From Candidatus Bathycorpusculum sp. (GTDB lineage: Archaea > Thermoproteota > Bathyarchaeia > Bathyarchaeales > Bathycorpusculaceae), in assembly GCA_009778385.1 (NCBI GenBank), contig WRJX01000093.1, positions 1 to 38,863 of the forward strand: 38,863 nt of DNA. The letters are read 5' to 3'. Position 1 is the stretch's first letter. Each line of letters begins with the position of its first letter. Both the position numbers and the translations under genes were made by a program. Under the pieces are notes generated by a model. That model was given only the letters and a program-made list of their open reading frames with translations. It was not told where the DNA came from and did no database searches. Shown piece after piece: positions 1,052 to 38,863 of the stretch.

Positions 1052-1873
1052 TTAGGCGCTGATTTTTGGTGGTGGGCGAACACGTCGTCCCAGTTTGATG
1101 TGTAATGCAATGCGGTAGAGTTTACGTAGGGATTTTACAAGTTGTTCAACGCTTGGAGCTGAAGAGTAAATTAGAGGTATTTGTTCGTATTCAGCAAGTT
1201 TGATGGCTTCTTCATCAGGCAAGGTTTTATGGAAAACTATTACACGCGGTTTGAGGCTGCAAACGCGGACAATCATCATAGGTAGAGTGCCATTTTCCAC
1301 GTTGGTGAAGATTAGTGCTCGTTCGCTAGAAGCGCCAAAAAGTTGGGTGTATTCATGTCCAGAAAGAGATTCAACAGCGTGTTTACTGTCAATTACGGTG
1401 TAGCCGTTAATTTCTTTGACTGATTTTTCTTCAGATGCGACAATTTTGCCGTTAATTGCTCGGCATAGGTATTCTACACGAACGGGTATAGGAAACTCTC
1501 GTAAATCAATAATGGCCATGCTTGGTGAGCTTGTGAGTTTAGCAAACTCGCGTATGAAGCGACTGCCTTTGGATTCATCAATTCGTAATAATGCCAAAAC
1601 AAAGCGGCGGATAAATTTGGCTCCAGGGCTTTTTCGGCGTCCACTTTCATAATCGCTGATAACAGATGAAGACAAACTCATGACTTCTGAAAGGCTAAGT
1701 TGGGATACAGCAAAAAGTTCACGCCATTTTCTCATGGTCACACCGGGTTTTCCGGAAAGTATGATTTCGCCAGCGATTCTTCTTGCCAGAACTTCACGAG
1801 TGCTAGGTGAGACAGACATAAAGCAACGCTCTTTTTTAGGTTTACCTGTTTCTTCAAACAAGTATAAAGCCAT
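1052..1873 (-). CDS. XRE-type helix-turn-helix transcriptional regulator (archaeal)
   Basis: A 273-aa protein with an XRE/Cro-like helix-turn-helix at about residues 47-82: the LSLSEVMSLSSSVISDYESG stretch has the typical Ser-rich turn, the recognition helix and the Y-E-S-G-R end. The remaining ~190 residues form an archaeal C-terminal domain that probably senses a ligand or mediates oligomerisation. This arrangement is typical of conserved archaeal regulators whose targets are largely unknown. A TATA box at 1911-1919 predicts a transcript start near 1890, giving a short leader to the ATG at 1873; a second in-frame ATG at residue 19 is possible. It is divergent from Alba-1, with about 170 bp between the starts, so the two promoters are close, but regulation of Alba by this protein is only a guess. 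Confidence 0.85.
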   Translation of the reverse strand: MALYLFEETGKPKKERCFMSVSPSTREVLARRIAGEIILSGKPGVTMRKWRELFAVSQLSLSEVMSLSSSVISDYESGRRKSPGAKFIRRFVLALLRIDESKGSRFIREFAKLTSSPSMAIIDLREFPIPVRVEYLCRAINGKIVASEEKSVKEINGYTVIDSKHAVESLSGHEYTQLFGASSERALIFTNVENGTLPMMIVRVCSLKPRVIVFHKTLPDEEAIKLAEYEQIPLIYSSAPSVEQLVKSLRKLYRIALHIKLGRRVRPPPKISA

Positions 1874-1910
1874 AACGTTTTAGAGTATGAGGAATTAAAA
1901 ATTTTTGAAA

Positions 1911-1919
1911 TCTATATAC
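1911..1919 (-). promoter_or_regulatory. TATA box of the XRE regulator
   Basis: Minus strand reads GGTATATAGA followed by an A/T-rich stretch. It lies 38-46 bases before the ATG, so a start about 25 bases downstream leaves a leader of roughly 15 nt without an obvious Shine-Dalgarno sequence. Confidence 0.6.
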
Positions 1920-1961
1920 CAAAAGATGCCAAAAAAGTGTTAGCAGTATTTTGAATTGCGT

Positions 1962-1974
1962 TTATAAGGAAGTT
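1962..1974 (+). promoter_or_regulatory. Conserved promoter element of Alba-1
   Basis: TTATAAGGAAGTT, 70 bases before the Alba-1 ATG. The identical 13-mer occurs 90 bases before Alba-2 (33474-33486, minus strand). The TTATAA part fits a TATA box; the flanking AAGGAAGTT may be part of a shared factor site. It predicts a 5' leader of roughly 45 nt. Confidence 0.6.
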
Positions 1975-2043
1975 CTAACATATTTGGCTATAACGGGCTG
2001 TCAAAGAAATCGACAGAACGACAAGTACAACAAGTGAAATAAA

Positions 2044-2331
2044 ATGGCAGAAAAACAACAAGACGTTATTTTCGTTGGAAATAAACCTCCAATGAGCTAT
2101 GTTCTAGCTATTATCACGGCATTCTCTTCTGGGACAACAAAAGACATCACTTTGAAAGCACGAGGCCAAGCAATCACTACAGCTGTTGACGTTGCAGAAA
2201 TCACAAGAAGCCGCTTTATCAAAGAACTCAAAGTGAGCAAAATAGCAATTGGAACAGCCGAGATGCCGCCACGAGAAGGCGAGAACAAGTCTAGAATGGT
2301 TTCTACAATAGAGATAACTCTAGTAAAGTAA
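2044..2331 (+). CDS. albA: Alba DNA/RNA-binding chromatin protein, copy 1
   Basis: A 95-aa Alba-family protein. Diagnostic features are the VGNKPPMSYVLAI segment near the N terminus, where the family carries the nucleic-acid-contacting lysine, the LKARGQAITTAVDVAEI helix, and the C-terminal beta hairpin with IGTAEMPPREGENKSRMVSTIEI, whose basic loop grips the DNA minor groove. Alba dimers coat and bridge DNA and also bind RNA. The gene stands alone, divergent from the XRE regulator and convergent with Mrp. The second copy at 33.1-33.4 kb is identical at 77 of the 89 residues aligned from DVIFVG onward. Heterodimers between Alba paralogues are known in other archaea, so the pair may have distinct roles. 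Confidence 0.95.
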   Translation: MAEKQQDVIFVGNKPPMSYVLAIITAFSSGTTKDITLKARGQAITTAVDVAEITRSRFIKELKVSKIAIGTAEMPPREGENKSRMVSTIEITLVK

Positions 2332-2422
2332 ACCAGATCTTGACAATACAGTTTAGAAATGAGAGTTTGATTAACTCTCACACCCCTTTTTACAGTAAAA
2401 ATTTAATCTAAAAAATTAAGAG

Positions 2423-3274
2423 CTATTTTTTGAGTTTAGCTTCAACTTTAGAGACTACTTTGTTAAAGATTTTAGAGGCGTCAGATTCAGGATAAGAGAG
2501 GATAAACGGTGAACCTTTATCTGCGTCAAAACTGATTTTAGGGTCAATTGGGATGCTTCCAAGAAAGTCAACACCGGTGTCTTTGGCTATTTTTAATCCG
2601 CCGCCTGACTGGAAGATTTCGGTTTTTTCACCGCAATGAGGGCAGATAAAGCCGTTCATGTTTTCGACAATTCCTAATACAGGCATCTGAAGGTTTTCAG
2701 CGAAGATTATGGCTTTTTTGACGATTTCACTGGAAAGAATTGAAGGCATTGTAACAATAATTACACCAGATATTTCAGGTAACAGTTGGGCTACACTTAA
2801 AGGTTCATCACCAGTTCCAGGCGGTAAATCGATAAGCAAATAATCCAATTCACCCCATAGAACATCAGATAAGAACTGTTTAATTGCCTTCATCTTTAAG
2901 GGCCCACGCCAAATAGCAGGGGTTTGTCCAGGCAAGAAAAAGTCAATTGACATCACTTTGATACCTAAGGGACCTTCCACAGGGAAAACACCTGCAATAC
3001 TAGAACGGACTTGCTTACCCTCTAAACCATACAAACGCGGAATACTCGGACCATGAATATCAGCATCTAAAACACCAACACGATAACCCTCTTTAGCCAA
3101 CGCAGCACCCAAATTAGCAGTTACAGTGCTCTTACCAACTCCACCTTTACCACTGATTATGGCAATTTTATGTTTAATACGACCCATGTTTTCGTGGAAC
3201 TGCTGCTGTTCTGCAGCTTCTTGCTGACGATAAGCTTCAATCTGTGCTTGATTTTGCTCTAACCGACTACACAA
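2423..3274 (-). CDS. mrp: Mrp/NBP35 family iron-sulfur cluster carrier ATPase
   Basis: A 283-aa P-loop ATPase of the Mrp/NBP35/ApbC family. The deviant Walker A GKGGVGKST lies at residues 42-50, followed by the switch regions LDADIHGPSIPR and DLPPGTGDEP, and the conserved C211-P-H-C214, which in this family binds a bridging [4Fe-4S] cluster between two subunits. Role from the family: binding and transferring Fe-S clusters to apoproteins in the cytoplasm. The N-terminal ~35 residues are Gln/Glu-rich and helical. The best start is a TTG at 3274 with AGGAG about 12 bases upstream; the internal ATG at residue 30 would remove only the helix. Single gene, convergent with Alba-1. Confidence 0.93.
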   Translation of the reverse strand: MCSRLEQNQAQIEAYRQQEAAEQQQFHENMGRIKHKIAIISGKGGVGKSTVTANLGAALAKEGYRVGVLDADIHGPSIPRLYGLEGKQVRSSIAGVFPVEGPLGIKVMSIDFFLPGQTPAIWRGPLKMKAIKQFLSDVLWGELDYLLIDLPPGTGDEPLSVAQLLPEISGVIIVTMPSILSSEIVKKAIIFAENLQMPVLGIVENMNGFICPHCGEKTEIFQSGGGLKIAKDTGVDFLGSIPIDPKISFDADKGSPFILSYPESDASKIFNKVVSKVEAKLKK

Positions 3275-3372
3275 TAAAACACACTACTCCTAAAGGCATT
3301 ACCTTCACTCTCCAATCTACATCTCCAACATAATATCCCTTTTTATTTTTCTGAGTCCATCTAGGACGGTTT

Positions 3373-3554
3373 ATGAGCAGGTATAAAGATAGAGAGAAGA
3401 CTGAGCAGGCCCTTAAGTATATGAAGAATTATTTGGAGGCGAATAGAACGTATTTGGGTAACGATAGGACGGTTCAGGGTATTTTGTTGTGGCGTTTTTA
3501 GCGACACGGATATATTTTAAGAACCTACAACAGCAGCTGCATGAGAAGGATTGA
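3373..3554 (+). pseudogene. Decayed small gene (one frameshift and one nonsense codon)
   Basis: An ATG at 3373 opens 42 codons of normal-looking, Lys/Tyr-rich helical protein (starting MSRYKDREKTEQALKYMKN), ending at TAG 3499-3501. If one T is added to the five-T run at 3495-3499, the frame continues FLATRIYFKNLQQQLHEKD to TGA 3552-3554. Beyond that TGA the same frame stays open (IDKVSFGRYFMLQTV...) up to about 3680, where it enters an inverted-repeat element. The pattern suggests a small helical protein gene broken by a 1-base deletion, a Trp-to-stop change and an insertion. A programmed frameshift or an assembly error at the T run cannot be excluded. No family is recognised. Confidence 0.45.
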
Positions 3555-3593
3555 ATTGACAAGGTCTCGTTCGGAAGGTACTTTATGCTCCAG

Positions 3594-3704
3594 ACTGTGT
3601 CAAAAGTCAAAATTCAACTCATCAAACCACAACATATAGTATGCGATAAAATAACATACATCATATATAGCATAGTATAATTGATAAAAAATTAGTTTTG
3701 ACAC
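3594..3704. mobile_element. MITE-like element with 11-bp terminal inverted repeats
   Basis: CTGTGTCAAAA at 3594-3604 is repeated in inverted orientation (TTTTGACACAG) at 3694-3704, bounding 111 bp of AT-rich DNA with no gene. Ends of the form CTGTGTCAAAA resemble the tips of several DDE insertion-sequence families, so this may be a non-autonomous derivative. The left end lies inside the reading frame of the decayed gene at 3373. No clear target duplication flanks it, so identification as a mobile element is tentative. Confidence 0.4.
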
Positions 3705-3845
3705 AGGCTGGCTCGCTCCGAGGCGTTACGCGCCAAATGGCGCGATGCTCAAATGCTCGGCAACTGCCCCGTAACGCCCAAGGGACGATACCGCGCCAAG
3801 CCTCTTCGCTCACGCCCAACCAATGGAGGACAGGGGCAGATAAAA
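3705..3845. repeat. GC-rich folded element (REP-like)
   Basis: About 140 bp of markedly GC-rich sequence within AT-rich DNA. It contains nested inverted repeats: GGCGTTAC (3722-3729) pairs with GTAACGCC (3771-3778), and inside this GCGCCAAATGGCGC (3730-3743) forms its own hairpin. The outer arm shares GTAACGCCCAA with 387-397. Compact nested stems of this kind are typical of REP-like mobile hairpins or structured RNAs. The + strand stays open across it as a 78-codon frame, but the codons are those of the stems, not of a protein. Together with the decayed gene and the MITE-like element it fills the gap from 3275 to 3955. Confidence 0.5.
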
Positions 3846-3955
3846 CAGTAAAATATCAAAAAAATGTTAATTTTTTTCCGACAAAAATCATTGCTACGCA
3901 TCAAGAGGCATTAAACCCCATATTAAAGGTATAACGCCACAACCTAAAGTTACTA

Positions 3956-4324
3956 TCACAAAATATCAATTCGCCTATATGTATCATGTTGATTATTTGT
4001 AACCTTCAACCCATATGAAGTAGCTTTATCTTTATCTTTGCTGAGTTCACCCAGTGAATCACTAAAAAAGAGAACAAAAGTTGGATCGCCGAATGCCTTT
4101 TTCATAGCATCCAATACAAAATCTGACCCCCGCACATAATTTTTTATAAGCTCAGGATCGCTTAACCCCCGAGTTAATGCCTTTGATACGTAAAGTTTTC
4201 CTCCTTTCAAACTCAACATAAAGTCCACAAGAGACTTCTGTGCTTGTGGATTGAGCTTTTCCCACTCCTTTTTAAGACTGATCCCCATCCGAAGAATTCC
4301 GCCACCTTCATGACCACAACTCAT
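3956..4324 (-). CDS. Hypothetical protein, 122 aa
   Basis: A soluble, mixed-charge protein. The N terminus MSCGHEGGG carries a Cys and a His close together and is followed by an amphipathic helical region (KKEWEKLNPQAQKSLVDFML). The C-terminal half contains hydrophobic strands (DPTFVLFFSDSL). The ATG at 4324 has a GGTTGGT stretch 4-10 bases upstream; an in-frame ATG at residue 13 is an alternative. The 146 bp upstream are very AT-rich and run to the IS481 element. No family is recognised. As an orphan in an island it may be an accessory protein of transferred origin. Confidence 0.55.
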   Translation of the reverse strand: MSCGHEGGGILRMGISLKKEWEKLNPQAQKSLVDFMLSLKGGKLYVSKALTRGLSDPELIKNYVRGSDFVLDAMKKAFGDPTFVLFFSDSLGELSKDKDKATSYGLKVTNNQHDTYRRIDIL

Positions 4325-4456
4325 ACAACCAACCTTTTCTTAAAATAAAATATAGCTAACAAAAAAATTGAAAAATAAACATGTCAAAAGCATGATAAAC
4401 TATAATTGAATTATATCCTTAAATTATTATGTCTTTTGACCTTTATTTACCTTTTT

Positions 4457-4470
4457 CATTTTATATACAC
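4457..4470. repeat. Left 14-bp target-site duplication of the IS481 element
   Basis: CATTTTATATACAC immediately before the left inverted repeat. The same 14 bases follow the right end at 5400-5413. IS481-family elements are known for long and variable target duplications, so 14 bp fits. Confidence 0.9.
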
Positions 4471-4500
4471 TGTTCTATCTAGAAAATGCCTTACACTCTT
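4471..4500 (+). repeat. Left terminal inverted repeat of the IS481 element
   Basis: Starts TGTTCTATCTAG and matches the reverse complement of 5370-5399 at roughly 25 of 30 positions. The mismatches are concentrated in the middle. Confidence 0.85.
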
Positions 4501-4532
4501 GTGTAGTAATATAATGGTAAGAGTGAGTAGGT

Positions 4533-5379
4533 TTGGATAGAGATATTGATCAGATTAAAGTGTGGATTGTAAAGAAGCGGTTACAGGGGTGGGCAGTTAC
4601 GGATATTTGTGCTTCTGTTAAGATAAGTCGTGATATGTTCTACCGTTGGTGGAATCGCTATCAGACCTTGGGATGGAGGGGGTTAGATGAGAAGCCTAAG
4701 GACGTCCAAATGGTCCTGAAATAGATCGAGCGCTAAAAGACCGGATTGTAAAGTTACGTGAAAGATATGAGTGGGGTCCAAAAAAGATCGCAGGCACCCT
4801 AAGGCACAAGGGCTATGACATAGATAATAATCAAGCCTACAAAATCATCTGTCAAGCAGGCCTAAACCATCCTATAGCTGCACCTAGAAAGACCTGGGGC
4901 ACTAAACGCTTCCAAAGAGAGCATAATAATAGTTTGTGGCAGGCCGATTTCAAGCTATGCGGTGATATGATTTCTGGATGATAAGCTACCAAGACGACCA
5001 TTCACGCTTCATCACCGGCTCAATTAAGATTTGGAATCCCACAGGCGAGAATGCCCTGTTACTATTAGATAGGGCGGTTAGAAAGTATGGAGTTCCACAG
5101 CAGATTTTGACTGATCAGGGTACACAGTTTAAGCCTGCGCGCGGCGGGATTTCTGCATTTAGACACCATTGCACAGAGCTGGGCATTGAACACATTACTG
5201 CAAGTGTACGCAGACCCACTACCTGCGGCAAAATTGAAGCGTTTCACAAAGCCTACCAAGTAGAATCCCACCTATTCAAACAACACTGGAGCTTCATAAG
5301 ATACTATAATTTCACAAGACCCCACGAAGGCATAGACTATTTAACACCCGCAGAAATATACCTAAAACCAAAAGTGTAA
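4533..5379 (+). pseudogene. IS481-family DDE transposase, broken by two frameshifts
   Basis: Three reading frames together make one transposase. Frame 1 (4533-4724, TTG start) is the N-terminal helix-turn-helix (VTDICASVKISRDMFYRWWNRY). Near 4700 a single base is lost: continuing in the neighbouring frame restores KPKGRPNGPEID and runs through a second DNA-binding region to 4980. Around 4967 a second shift of frame leads into the rve integrase core (4978-5379). The catalytic triad survives at sequence level: first Asp in WQADF (codon near 4945), second in LTDQGTQF, Glu in GKIEAFHKAY. With two frameshifts this is a pseudogene rather than a programmed-frameshift element, which would need one shift at a slippery site. 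Confidence 0.88.
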
Positions 5380-5399
5380 GACAATTACTAGATAGAACA
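5370..5399 (-). repeat. Right terminal inverted repeat of the IS481 element
   Basis: Reverse complement of the left end; the last bases before the target duplication are AGATAGAACA. It overlaps the last codons of the transposase frame. Confidence 0.85.
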
Positions 5400-5413
5400 C
5401 ATTTTATATACAC
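5400..5413. repeat. Right 14-bp target-site duplication of the IS481 element
   Basis: CATTTTATATACAC, identical to 4457-4470. It is followed by further TATACAC-rich sequence, so the target was an AT-rich intergenic stretch. Confidence 0.9.
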
Positions 5414-5591
5414 ATATACACTTTTTTATATACACTTTTTTTGACATGCTGATAGAAAATCATCCACCAATATAAGTTCAAAAAAGAGCAAATCCGATAT
5501 CTAAAAAACAAAAAGTATTTTTCCCAAAAAATTTATATTTTCTAAGTGCCGAAATAGCCTATCGCCAGCATATTAATGGGTATGTTTAAGG

Positions 5592-7139
5592 TTAATTATG
5601 TGCCTTTTTCTCAATATTTTTCAATTTTTTGCGCATATTTTCTGTTAAAAGTTTCTCATTTCCCCCATCTAAATGTTTGCAGAGTCCATCAAATGTTGTC
5701 TTCAAGTCTTCGTGGATGAGATCAATAGCATCCTTCATAATTTTGCTATACTCTGCCTGTTGGTTAAATATCCGCCTTACACGCCTAACATCTTCCTCAA
5801 AGTATCTATCATAATTTTCCTGCACACCTGAGTTAATGCGCATGATCTGTCCAATGAATGATGGATAAACCTGTGCTGTAAATTTAGTAAAATTCAACAT
5901 ATGATTATAGAATGGCTTCAAGGTATTCTCCATGAATGCGTTTTTGTCTTCAATATCCTTGATTTCATACAATCCTTTGTAATGTGGCAGTTGGTATTGA
6001 TTTCTTATGTTGTCTAGGATTCGCATATTTTTAGCCATATACCTGCTTTTTTTCAGCCAGTCATTGTCATCAATTCCAGTTATAGAATTCTGTTTAATTG
6101 AAATAAGAGTCGATACGCATTGAGGACAACACGAAACAGACTTTTTGCCATATCGTATATTCCTGAACGCTTTTGCATGTTGTCTCGAATGCGAAACAAA
6201 TCTATAAAAAGTATCCTTGCCATGTTTTTCAGTTAAATTATAAGTTATCGCAAAGTTTGCTGCATCTATTTCGTTATTCTCATCACGGTAATATATTTTT
6301 TTAGTTTCATCAAGGAAATACGGTCTGCAATCGTTTAACTTTGATAATGCTTTACTATAAATACTCTTAATGCCCTCGATGCCCTCTTTAGTTTCAATTT
6401 GCCCTATATCTTCTGCTAAGGATTCGCCCATAGGTGGAATTATTCCATCGAGAAGCGTTTTAACAGTCGAGTAATTATGTGCCAATCTCGCGCCCAGTTG
6501 CTTTTCATCGACAAGTGCTAAAATATCAAGAAAATTACCCATAGCAATATAATGTTCCATTAGTTTTCCGCTAAATACTTCAGGATTTTTTCCGTCCCAA
6601 CTATCTACGACCTTGCAAAATTCAGCTATTTTACCATGTTTATTGATTTCTAAATTTGACAATTGTACTACGTCGTCATGCATTAAATCTAGTTTTTTTA
6701 TTAGTTCATATATGGTTGGCGGTGTCATAAAATACTTTTTTTTACTCGCCGACTCGAGCATATAATTAATACTGCCTAAATCGTTATTGCTGATAATTTT
6801 ATTTTGATTACCCATTGCTTCAACAGGGTATAAGTATGCATGGATATCCGAATAATCAATATTAAATTCGTGGTTAATACCTGCATATTTTTCTTCGTAG
6901 TATGTTTTTCCCATTTCACATGCCAGTGAATATGTAGAAACAAGGTAATGCAATGCATCATACCTTGAAAATAGTATAGCTTTTTTGTCAATTCGGTTTA
7001 ATATATTTTGAACTTCTTCATAGGTGTACTTTTGAGATTTATCTTCTGCTACTATAGTCTCAATATCCTTATTTTCGCGCCTATTGAGTCGATAAATATC
7101 TTTTTCTTCAGGATTGAGCAAATTGTCAATATTCGTCAT
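5592..7139 (-). CDS. Large protein of unknown function with a possible PIN-like nuclease core (515 aa)
   Basis: Third gene of a three-gene cassette. No family is recognised with confidence. Several blocks are spaced like the acidic motifs of PIN-like RNases: Asp98 in YSDIHAYLYP, Glu145 in PPTIYELIKKL, and Asp292 in NEIDAANFAITY followed by a hydrophobic strand and FVSHS (313-317), where PIN proteins have their last acidic/Ser position. A helical insert of roughly 130 residues (about 150-280) separates motifs two and three. C337-C338-x2-C341 may bind metal. The C-terminal 150 residues are helical and highly charged. The ATG directly follows the stop of the upstream gene, with GGAGG 8 bases before it, so translation is coupled. 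Nuclease assignment is inference. Confidence 0.7.
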   Translation of the reverse strand: MTNIDNLLNPEEKDIYRLNRRENKDIETIVAEDKSQKYTYEEVQNILNRIDKKAILFSRYDALHYLVSTYSLACEMGKTYYEEKYAGINHEFNIDYSDIHAYLYPVEAMGNQNKIISNNDLGSINYMLESASKKKYFMTPPTIYELIKKLDLMHDDVVQLSNLEINKHGKIAEFCKVVDSWDGKNPEVFSGKLMEHYIAMGNFLDILALVDEKQLGARLAHNYSTVKTLLDGIIPPMGESLAEDIGQIETKEGIEGIKSIYSKALSKLNDCRPYFLDETKKIYYRDENNEIDAANFAITYNLTEKHGKDTFYRFVSHSRQHAKAFRNIRYGKKSVSCCPQCVSTLISIKQNSITGIDDNDWLKKSRYMAKNMRILDNIRNQYQLPHYKGLYEIKDIEDKNAFMENTLKPFYNHMLNFTKFTAQVYPSFIGQIMRINSGVQENYDRYFEEDVRRVRRIFNQQAEYSKIMKDAIDLIHEDLKTTFDGLCKHLDGGNEKLLTENMRKKLKNIEKKAHN

Positions 7140-8413: not shown

Positions 8414-9061
<648 letters not shown>

Positions 9062-9560: not shown

Positions 9561-12500
9561 TTATTCTACGCTTTTTAGTGATTCAATCATGTCGATTTTT
9601 TTGAGTTTAAAGTAGGTTATTGCCTGCATAAGGACTGAGATTGCCATTGTGATTGCGCAGGACATGATAAAGCTAATCCAGCCTATGTTTTTGTATAGGG
9701 ATATGGCGTTGATTTCAATAAGGTCTAACACGAATCGGTGTAGCATAATTCCTAAAATCATGCCTATTCCTATGCTGATTGCTGTTAGAATGAATGCTTC
9801 GCGGTAGATGTAGGCGTTTGTTTCGCCGTCGCGGAAGCCAAGTACTTTAAGTGTGGCGATTTCACGTGTTCGTTCACTTATATTGATAGCTGTTAGGTTA
9901 TACAGCACAACGATTGCGAGGATTGATGCGACAACTAAAATTAGGATAATTACGCCGTTTAGGCTGTTGACGCTGTCGCGAGCGTTTTCTATAGTGTCCT
10001 TTGAGAAAAACACGTTGATAACAAGGCCGCTGGCAATTAAATTTTCAGCTAACTGTGTTTCTTCTACATTATCATTATTATTTGAAACTATAGTGTTGAA
10101 GTTTATAGGGTTTCCAAGTAGTTCTTCATAAGTTGGGGCATTAATGTAGATGTAGTTTGATACGTAATTTTCTGCTATATTAGTTACAGTCAAATTGTAA
10201 AGGTTGTTGTTTGCATCTTTAATTGTAATGGTGTCGCCATTTCCCAAGTTATATACTGTGGCAATTCTTTGGGTGATTATAACATCGCCGTCATGTAAAT
10301 TGATGTCTTTTTTGTTTGTTGTGCTTTTGAGGTTGAAGTATTTTTCAAACAGTTCACTATTTTGCGGTATTATTAAAAAGGTGTTTAGTGATTTTTGATT
10401 TATCTCAACTTTGTATGCGCTTTGTTTGATTAGGAGGGGGTCTTCAATTTGTTGCTCGTTAAGTAGCGTCTTTAGTTCGCCGTTTATTGTTTGTATTTCG
10501 TCTTTAAGTATGATCATGTTGTCGTATTGCATAATTTCGCCGTATTGTTTTTGTGCAATGCCACTCATGCCGTCGTGTACTCCAAAGGCGACAAGTAATA
10601 ATGCAGCACAACCCGCTATGCCCACGATTGTCATGAAGGCGCGTTTTTTATAGCGGAACATGTTTCGTATTGTGATTTTCCATGTAAAGGAAAGACGTTT
10701 CCATATGAACGTAATTTTTTCAAGAAGTATCTGCTGACCGTGTTTAGGAGGAGGCGGACGCAGTAAAGCGGCAGGTTTTTGCTTTAACTCTCTGTTACAG
10801 GTAACAATTGTAACGGCAGACATGAGCGTGACGGTGACTGCTAAAATGATGCCAAAGGTTCTCATGTTGTATTGCAGTACAAGGGGTGGTAGTATATACA
10901 CGAAATTGTCCCATATTAACTGCGGTATAATCCTGCAGCCTATGAAAAAGCCTGCCACTGCACCTATTCCTGAAGCGGATAAAACATACAACAAATAAGT
11001 AGACATAACATGTTTGTCGCCATATCCAAGTGAGGTAAGTGTTCCTAACTCTCCGCGTTCCTCTGTTATCATACGTGCCATCGAATTTGACGTCATAAGT
11101 ATAGAAATTAAAATGAAAAAGAACGGGAAAACGGTGGCGACAATGGCAACAATCTGAATACTGCTATCTAACTCAGCGTATCCAACTGCGGCGTCTCTGT
11201 CAAAAATATACCATGTAGGCTGTTCTATATCTGAAAGATCCGCTTTAGCCTCTTCAATTTGTTTTTTAGCATCAATTATCTCAGCATTAAATTTTTCAAG
11301 GTTGTTGTAGTATTCTTTATAGCCCTCATCTAATTTCTTCTCGTTAGTGGCAATTTCATTTTTGGCGTTTTCTATCTCATTTTTTGCTTTTTCCATTTCT
11401 GCGTTGAAAGCGGCGATTCCATCGTCTAATTGTTTTTCCTGCTCCTTTAAGGTGTCAATAGCACTTTTTAGTTGCCTTAGCCCCTCCAGTTTTTCTGAAT
11501 ACTCTGCAATCAAAACGCTAAGCGCGACATATTCGGGGCTGCCAACAGGCAGGCTGTCAAGTTGCATCTTTAGGGCAGATATAGCCAAATTCAACTCGTA
11601 AATATTTGAATCTACGTCCTCCTGTGCTAGGCCTGCCTCTGATAACGCAAAATTAATTTCATCCCACCCGTTCGCAATCATCTGTTTTGCCAAATCAAAC
11701 TCGGCATTCTGTGTTTCAATGGTATCTGCTAATAGGGCTTCATTTTCTGCTATTTCATTTTTCCCGTCTTGCAGTTTTTTGGCGTTTTCATCGAGTTCTT
11801 TTTTTGCGTCATAAAATTCTTTTTCGGCTTTTGCTTTCTCAGAATTTAACTTAGCCTCATTTTCCTCAATAATCGCCATAGCATCATTATATATCTGATA
11901 ATACCGGGCATTTTCTCGCCCAGGCTTAATTTTATTAAGTTCATTATCAAGTTTTGACGTAAGAGTTTTATATTCGTCTGAATACGCAACAGTATTACCT
12001 GTCTTGGCTATAACATAAATTTCGGTGTATGCGTCTAAAATAAAATTGTCTTTAGTTATGAAAATAAACGAAGACAGCTTGCCATTTCCAATGGTTGTGC
12101 TGCCGTAGTCTTCGGCTAAATATAAAACTGAGTCAATTAAGCCGACAACAGTAAACTCGGTATTTTTGATTTTATCGTTAACGTTGTCGTCTGTTATTTC
12201 AATTATGTCACCAATCTTGTAATTTCTGCTATCCGCAATACACTCCATATCTGAGCGGGGCATTTGCCCCTCTGCTAATCTGACGGTGTTGACTTTTTCC
12301 TCAATAGTATGAATACGAATTGCCCTACCTCGGCTTTGAACATCCAAAGAATAACTTGGAACAACATCAACTACACCAGTTAACTGTTTTAGCGCAGCAA
12401 CATCATCATCGGTAAGTCCCATAGAACTAACAATTTTAAAATCCATAAGTGTGTAGTCCTTATAGTAAGTGTCAGCAATTTTTATGACATTAGGCGTGGT

Positions 12501-37869: not shown

Positions 37870-38205
37870 TTAAGCTTCTAATTCATCAAAGAATTCGAGT
37901 AGAAGCTTTGCTGCTTTTTCGCCTAATTCAGTTTTAAGGTAATACTTCTTTAGAGGATCTATGCGTCCACTTTTGGCTAAACCCAAACTTTCGAGTTCAA
38001 TCATTCGAGCTCTGAAAGTACTATCACTTAATGTAAGCTTATTTTGTCCCATGAATTCTTTAGTATTTTTCCATTTTCCTTTGTCCATGTAGAGCAGTAA
38101 TAGACAGTCTATGGCGTGATCTTTTTCAAGAACCGTTTTAATTGCCGAAAATCTTGGATTTGTTAGAATATGCTTAACTTTTTCTTCAACTTCATTACTC
38201 TTCAT
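37870..38205 (-). CDS. Winged-helix transcriptional regulator (111 aa)
   Basis: 111 aa, made of a helical dimerisation part (residues 1-45) and a winged helix (about 46-95: KEFMGQNKLTLSDSTFRARMIELESLGLAKSGRIDPLKKYYLKT), where the recognition helix and the beta wing are clear. It resembles small archaeal winged-helix proteins and lacks a ligand domain. A TATA-like TTTTTATACTTA (minus strand reading around 38226-38236) lies about 25 bases before the ATG, so a leaderless or short-leader transcript is likely. Convergent with dihydroorotase across a 222-bp gap in which no gene is seen. Confidence 0.82.
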   Translation of the reverse strand: MKSNEVEEKVKHILTNPRFSAIKTVLEKDHAIDCLLLLYMDKGKWKNTKEFMGQNKLTLSDSTFRARMIELESLGLAKSGRIDPLKKYYLKTELGEKAAKLLLEFFDELEA

Positions 38206-38323: not shown

Positions 38324-38863
38324 TTAGGGGTATGGCGGATGTGGTTCAGTGGGAGGCAGAACTCCCTCAAGGTAAACATCATCAAGCTGAATCCAAATGA
38401 TTTCATCAGGAAGCTGCTCACCCTCAACGACCACATCACAAAGCTGACGACCTTCATTGATTACATCATCAAACTGATTCTCAATGATTTCATCACAAAG
38501 CTGACGACCAACCTTGAACACATCATCAAGCTGAACCTCAACGACCACATCACAAAGCTGACGACCAACAACGACATCATCAAACTGCTCACCCTCAATG
38601 AATACATCACAAAGCTGACGACCAACCTTGAACACATCATCAAGCTGAACCTCAACGACCACATCACAAAGCTGACGACCAACCCTGATTTCATCATCAA
38701 GCTGAACCTCAACGACCACATCACAAAGCTGACGACCTTCATTGATTACATCATCAAACTGATTCAGAATGACTACATCATCAAGCTGCTTACCCTCATT
38801 GACCACATCATCAAGCTGCTTACCCTCATTGACCACATCATCAAGCTGCTTACCCTCATTGAC
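38324..38863 (-). CDS. Repeat protein made of 19-residue units (N terminus outside the window)
   Basis: The minus-strand frame is open from the window edge to TAA 38324, at least 179 codons. It consists of alternating 9- and 10-residue motifs of the form QLxDVVxEGx; two make a 19-residue (57-bp) unit such as QLCDVVVEVQLDDVFKVGR, with one Cys per unit. About seven units are visible. Copies nearest the window edge read QLDDVVNEGK without Cys. The protein ends with a Pro-rich tail (PPTEPHPPYP). The repeats are acidic and Val/Leu-rich, which suggests a regular beta-solenoid-like or surface structure. No family is recognised; the start and any signal peptide lie outside the window. Confidence 0.6.
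   Translation of the reverse strand, partial: VNEGKQLDDVVNEGKQLDDVVNEGKQLDDVVILNQFDDVINEGRQLCDVVVEVQLDDEIRVGRQLCDVVVEVQLDDVFKVGRQLCDVFIEGEQFDDVVVGRQLCDVVVEVQLDDVFKVGRQLCDEIIENQFDDVINEGRQLCDVVVEGEQLPDEIIWIQLDDVYLEGVLPPTEPHPPYP
38351..38863. repeat. 57-bp tandem DNA repeats
   Basis: The coding repeats are also conserved at DNA level. A perfect 79-bp direct repeat occurs at 38491-38569 and 38605-38683 (offset 114 bp, exactly two 57-bp units), and the last 60 bp of the window are perfect 30-bp copies. Such near-identity means recent expansion or conversion, so copy number probably varies between strains. Confidence 0.85.

Follow-up and report, generated by a model that had tools for sequence, protein, structure and literature searches.

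The window analysed here, a stretch of 38,863 nucleotides, is the entire contig C93 of a Candidatus Bathycorpusculum genome (G000; 2,179,374 bases in 105 contigs). At its far end the minus strand carries an open reading frame of 179 codons (38324-38863) that is still open where the contig ends, as the original prediction of an open-ended repeat gene had it; we read it as the 3' portion of a gene for a large surface protein, with its 5' end past the contig. The frame encodes 17 tandem units of 9 or 10 residues, spaced 10,10,9,10,9,10,9,10,10,9,9,10,9,10,10,9, and closes with a non-repeat, proline-rich C-terminal tail, VLPPTEPHPPYP, and a stop codon (38324-38362, minus strand). The first four full units (38732-38848, minus strand) are free of Cys and read QLDDVVNEGK twice, QLDDVVILN and QFDDVINEGR; six 19-residue pairs follow (38390-38731, minus strand), each composed as 9+10 or 10+9 and each with one Cys, the six Cys of the array standing exactly 19,19,19,19,19 residues apart, and the final two units have Pro or Asp at the Cys position. 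The strict 19-residue spacing described earlier thus stands for the six Cys pairs, but each 19-residue stretch is a 9+10 pair and the underlying unit has 9 or 10 residues; likewise, because the four leading units lack Cys and the last two replace it, the claim of one Cys per unit holds only across six consecutive 19-residue pairs. Identity autocorrelation along the array peaks at 19 (0.51) and 38 (0.48), and Tandem Repeats Finder returns a period of 57 (7.0 copies, score 449) and a period of 171 (scores 515 and 503). The longest exact repeat, a perfect 79-bp block already noticed at two-unit offset, was recovered on the minus strand at 38605-38683 and 38491-38569, 114 bp or two 57-bp units apart, and the acidic, Val-rich composition also noted then is borne out by the counts (D+E 25%, V+I+L 35%).

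Beyond the stop codon, a minus-strand hairpin (38301-38284) precedes a T-rich stretch. It is terminator-like, but with one such hairpin in 801 scanned bases where 0.5 would be expected, the 'strong terminator' of the original prediction is weak by statistics alone; the Pro-rich tail that it was paired with is plainly there, and contains neither an LPXTG motif nor, by eye, a hydrophobic segment. The next gene downstream (37870-38205, minus strand) encodes a 111-aa protein that is winged-helix-like by eye and for which Pfam gave a single match, below cut-off. Near the opposite end of the contig (280-320) lies a perfect 9-bp tandem repeat, GTTTGGGGC, in 4.6 copies. The impression that the repeats resemble no recognised family also survived: no repeat family in Pfam or NCBIfam fits the window protein. 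DUF732 (PF05305) was considered and rejected, as the whole protein scores 28.7 bits (cut-off 22.4) but no individual stretch passes, the best stretch covering only positions 20-44 of 72 and lying within the repeats. Against PDB sequences the protein gave just two matches (E 0.47 and 0.53), which we judge to be chance, and a search of genome_contigs confirmed nothing. An AlphaFold2 model of the array alone, made with no alignment, reached a pLDDT of 36.8 and was discarded, so no stalk fold is shown.

Relatives of the window protein occur in 6 of 100 genomes (its own included), all within one genus. The array of G001 ranks second, after that of G009, in matching the window protein, and first by bits in the frame comparison described below. 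Units in these arrays may have 9 residues (YSDRKLDNV in G003, VNKVQVDDV in G023), 10 residues (DNRVDDVYLP, ADNKVADEVL, QGCDVTVDGK) or a mixture of both (the window and G001), around a core that by eye reads Q/K/R, hydrophobic, variable (D, C, P or A), D/N, V/E, hydrophobic. The stretch of G003 that was examined contains 21 Cys, and five other arrays (L032, L033, L034, L036 and L113) contain none; judged from these sequences, the Cys is a replacement at a single position of the unit, one that the relatives have irregularly or not at all. Many arrays terminate in LGSEDPEDPESIxYGRYTPPR. A profile of such ends matches in 5 of 32 genomes of the genus, G003 having four of them, and in 2 of 5 termite-gut Bacillota genomes, these being genomes reached through other loci. 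The window's tail is different. It resembles instead the Pro-rich tail (PPPIPYP) of a repeat gene in G014 that stands beside the same neighbour as the window gene, the two downstream neighbours being 74% identical over 109 aa, and the array end in G001 has neither type of tail. No LPXTG motif was seen at any archaeal array end that we read. Of 12 archaeal array genes read, the window's included, 11 run off a contig end, as expected because short repeats break assembly; the exception is a 128-aa gene (L069, G014:C16). The window array is a member of a family of arrays of 9/10-residue units at the ends of proteins in this genus and in a small number of termite-gut Bacillota, a stalk type for which neither Pfam nor NCBIfam has a fitting model.

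What lies upstream of such arrays can be read in relatives. With the upstream repeats of G001 as a query, the 32 genus genomes yielded five N-terminal halves on other contigs (G000, G001, G028 and two in G003), all with a signal-peptide-like start and all running into 8-residue aromatic repeats. Four of the five, including one on contig C57 of the window's own genome (L086; the others are L087, L089 and L090), also have a region of the form SFCA...TQxVxW...QPQ(L/I)VP, which we assign below to the thioester domain (TED); the fifth (L088, G003) has the aromatic repeats and no TED region. In G001 the N-terminal half consists of a signal-peptide-like start, TED and aromatic repeats, the C-terminal half of aromatic repeats, a prealbumin-like domain and a QLDDV-type array, and the two contigs have an exact 97-bp end in common; as this stretch is itself repetitive, the join is strong, not absolute. 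Between its aromatic repeats and prealbumin-like domain, the G001 protein (L015, 10580-12247, minus strand) has an extra array of 10-residue units, NDPEFKETIFNNPVLKKTVL. Where the upstream part can be read, a prealbumin-like domain is present along with further short-period arrays, and the majority of N-terminal halves, though not every one, also have a TED that follows a signal-peptide-like start. Pfam listed no SpaA match on the five N-terminal halves, and a profile of the prealbumin-like domain (A2) found no match in G000. Within G000, end-overlap tests of contig C57 with the window and with C50 were negative, giving no contig that joins the window array to a TED. Most archaeal signal peptides that we read contain, by eye, Gly-Cys within the hydrophobic stretch, and for this reason the proteins may be lipid-anchored at the N terminus. 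One of the N-terminal halves (L089, 3-2243, minus strand) has, after its signal-peptide-like start, a long low-complexity stretch of Asn and Gly, and also a 'TIYLKGTGS...VWHLVY' module that recurs in L103, L107 and L113. The own genome also encodes two small proteins, serine recombinases by eye, that are 87% identical over 205 aa, one in the window (8414-9061, minus strand) and the other (L086, 1622-2254, minus strand) directly upstream of the TED-bearing gene on C57; they could belong to a mobile element or a surface-gene switch.

Two bacterial loci show comparable arrangements. In a termite-gut Oscillospiraceae metagenome-assembled genome (L113), one 601-aa frame runs from a TED core through an aromatic array, a region that looks jelly-roll-like by eye and a TGDYQYVKTE array to a prealbumin-like domain, followed by a short, irregular array of the window's kind and a tail. 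The prealbumin-like domain matches fn3_3 at 28 bits, over the cut-off, and CarboxypepD_reg at 27.9 bits, below it; a SpaA match before the TED (0.0014) is under the cut-off. Since this array scores only 17 bits against that of the window, the link to the window is by architecture. At 9990-10000 of this locus the signal-peptide half and the TED half fall in different frames, through either a sequencing error or a real break. The 601-aa protein gave no match among plasmids and phages, and as its contig is 55 kb long with neighbours that are bacterial by eye, we regard this as a safe bacterial case; two others (L102 and L114), on contigs of 5-6 kb, may be misbinned archaeal contigs. The second locus (L103) is from a member of the Clostridiales with the same termite code, Nt197, as the window's genome. 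Its repeat gene (1658-4162) is complete, encodes 834 aa, and follows the same plan of arrays and tail, with a prealbumin-like region (SpaA 0.0024, under the cut-off) and no TED; a separate TED gene lies 5 kb on. The adjoining gene (4339-6810, minus strand) has, by eye, leucine-rich-like repeats and a dockerin-like C-terminus.

The TED assignment draws on motifs, profile searches and a predicted fold. As defined in PMC4450167 and PMC6194298, TEDs have a [YFL]C-hydrophobic-hydrophilic motif with the bond-forming Cys, in most cases a TQxx-hydrophobic-W helix, and the bond-forming Gln in a late beta strand with a weak motif; the archaeal and bacterial sequences match all three motifs. In an alignment of 15 rows, representing nine archaeal and six bacterial loci, the Cys, the Gln and Trp of TQxxxW, and QPQ are invariant. 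The Cys motif reads [FY]CA with H, N or E as the next residue in 14 of 15 rows (Tyr in L112); the helix motif, which sits on helix 114-124 of the model, has Thr before the Gln in 12 of 15 and a hydrophobic residue before the Trp in 10 (Thr or Ser in the other five); and QPQ(L/I)VP, on model strand 185-190, is present in all 15. A five-row profile searched against the PDB found 6fwy at E 0.0029, an entry that PMC6194298 identifies as EfmTIE86-TED. The AlphaFold2 model of the domain (pLDDT 85.5, pTM 0.82) retrieved TED structures at all of the first seven ranks in Foldseek (best E 4.7e-5), and VIA placed eight entries at Z 9.4-11.8 over 149-166 residues, with the next row at 2.6; seven of these eight best PDB entries are TEDs by title or by PMC6194298, the eighth (5dcq, FNE) being titled only as a bacterial adhesin. 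The Pfam TED model (PF08341), at E 0.01, found no match in five TED-bearing proteins. The assignment is carried by the profile-PDB and fold comparisons together with the motifs, the model itself being a confident one.

Across 162 genomes of the order, our own TED profile (A4) has matches in 10, every one a member of the genus, with two places in G000. The general Pfam TED profile reaches 8 of 162 genomes in 5 of 68 genera, with seven matches over the cut-off, all at 21-28 bits, and none in 14 control genomes; given this spread over genera, archaeal TED-type proteins probably extend beyond the family described here. On another contig of the own genome (C101), a 391-aa protein over the Pfam TED cut-off (L093, 817-1992, minus strand) has a signal-peptide-like start and is without short-period repeats. 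Aromatic repeats follow the TED in just 4 of the 15 loci (L100, L110, L111 and L113), the others continuing otherwise or being cut, and a second TED gene of G000, on C50, shows no short-period array over the 1091 aa that we read, so TED genes form a wider set than those with such stalks. An Oscillospiraceae protein of the same TED subfamily (L112, 3394-5076, plus strand) has an acidic (DDVDEP)n stretch and, by eye, an MPQTG-type sortase end, a classic anchor. The TED profile confirmed nothing in viral_contigs. A tree of 20 rows (15 archaeal and 5 bacterial), drawn from part of the 22 profile matches and leaving out the long L112 and L129, requires four changes of domain and recovers a single bacterial group in 0% of 200 bootstrap trees; its starred branches, however, force one change only, shuffled labels perform equally well in 160 of 500 cases, and the AU test gives p 0.054. 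The apparent mixing of bacterial and archaeal TEDs in this tree is no more than suggestive.

Taken with its relatives, the window gene is best explained as coding for a stalk segment at the C-terminal end of a large adhesin-type protein that a termite-gut Bathycorpusculum archaeon secretes and displays at its surface, a reading to which we give a probability of about 0.6. The stalk of a secreted surface protein is its well-supported part. As the N-terminus lies beyond the contig, a TED in the same polypeptide is something we infer from the related sequences, a TED adhesin being the best inference for the whole. The original prediction, partly supported by the evidence, was in this respect incomplete: the gene belongs to a family of large proteins, several of whose members have a thioester domain. 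The most serious competing account keeps the window gene in the same secreted family but makes it a TED-less stalk or coat protein with some other head, as the 834-aa Clostridiales gene is. That gene is complete, with arrays, prealbumin-like region and tail, one archaeal N-terminal half (L088) likewise has aromatic repeats without a TED, and C57 and the window share no end overlap; the TED in four of the five archaeal N-terminal halves with aromatic repeats, and the 97-bp overlap between a TED half and an array half in G001, nevertheless make this account the less likely of the two. We give little credence to a third, that a pseudogene ends at its 3' side in these repeats, an expansion that is decayed or non-functional: short-period arrays may drift neutrally, the family has a 128-aa short member (G014:C16) and the L113 gene is split by a frame change, but the 179 codons of unequal units contain no stop or frame break, Cys is kept at exact 19-residue spacing, and the arrays that we read in other genomes likewise have an open frame.

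Least probable of all is that the array is antisense to a gene on the other strand. The plus strand is open across it as well (38339-38863), as a Lys/Leu/Thr-rich ORF of 175 aa, which follows from a DNA period that is a multiple of three, and codon counts within the window array do not point to the minus frame, whose synonymous value of 0.13 is below the 0.17 of the best alternative frame; the same test favours the expected frame in L016 (0.27 against 0.20) and is mixed in the remaining arrays. When the window array was compared with ten related arrays, a frame other than minus scored best in four (L032, L033, L036 and L113; by 8 bits in L033), but the minus frame did so in six (L015, L016, L017, L018, L019 and L070), among them the closest relatives, although its lead in L070 is merely 1 bit. 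In the relatives, moreover, the frame that corresponds to it carries on through conserved domains and the conserved tail, so we take the strand as settled for the family, and a plus-strand gene as extremely improbable.

RTX repeats, secreted and Asp-rich nonapeptides of the form GGxGxDxUx, share the nine-residue periodicity, the abundance of Asp and the presumed secretion, but none of the window's 17 units has a GG or a GGxGxD core and no RTX match was listed by Pfam. The 10-residue periodicity could equal two pentads of a pentapeptide repeat; in the window array, however, five is not one of the best periods, and the sole Pfam pentapeptide match is below cut-off and in a different region of L015. 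The closest likeness is to the TED adhesins (PF08341), with which the relatives share the signal-peptide-like start, the TED by motifs and fold, prealbumin/CnaB-type domains and a repetitive stalk. They differ in that the host is archaeal, in a stalk of 8-10-residue units instead of isopeptide or ester domains, in the lack of LPXTG (a usual, not universal, anchor) at the window's end and at the archaeal array ends read, and in that Pfam TED goes unreported in the N-terminal halves. The archaeal DUF11/CLIPPER adhesin-like proteins, according to PMC12617251, have stalks of Ig-like isopeptide domains, unlike those here, and Pfam listed no DUF11 match for the window protein, the N-terminal halves or L103 and L113.

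If the window gene shares the N-terminal plan of its relatives, its product would be secreted and displayed at the surface, where the arrays would form an extended spacer or long stalk. The length of this stalk would drift by gain and loss of units through recombination, of which the exact 79-bp duplication would be a trace, and the regularly spaced Cys could cross-link or stiffen it. The TED would make an internal Cys-Gln thioester, which an amine on a partner surface (the gut lining, a food particle or another microbe) would attack, forming a covalent bond; for SfbI, attack on the thioester giving a covalent link is reported in PMC4450167. The conserved tail LGSEDPEDPESIxYGRYTPPR may be a sortase-independent retention signal. 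The window almost certainly comes from a termite-gut member of the Bathyarchaeia, of the genus Bathycorpusculum (PMC10684969). A broader proposal is that a termite-gut archaeon has covalent thioester adhesins on stalks of 8-10-residue repeats, held without sortase by a short C-terminal tail common to gut Clostridia, and that a single adhesion kit has crossed from one domain of life to another in the termite gut; this we advance tentatively, at somewhat below even odds.

Thioester adhesins have been described for Gram-positive bacteria in PMC4450167 and PMC6194298. The word 'archaea' is absent from these two main papers, and a full-text literature search, with subscription papers mostly outside its coverage, found no archaeal thioester adhesin. 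The feature is real, and the probable TED adhesin to which it belongs would be an archaeal variant of these proteins with a short-unit stalk. A covalent adhesin family is a concrete and testable candidate for how these archaea attach. The shared LGSEDPEDPES tail hints at an unfamiliar way of keeping proteins at the surface, and the TED in this family could help microbes to hold on in the termite gut.
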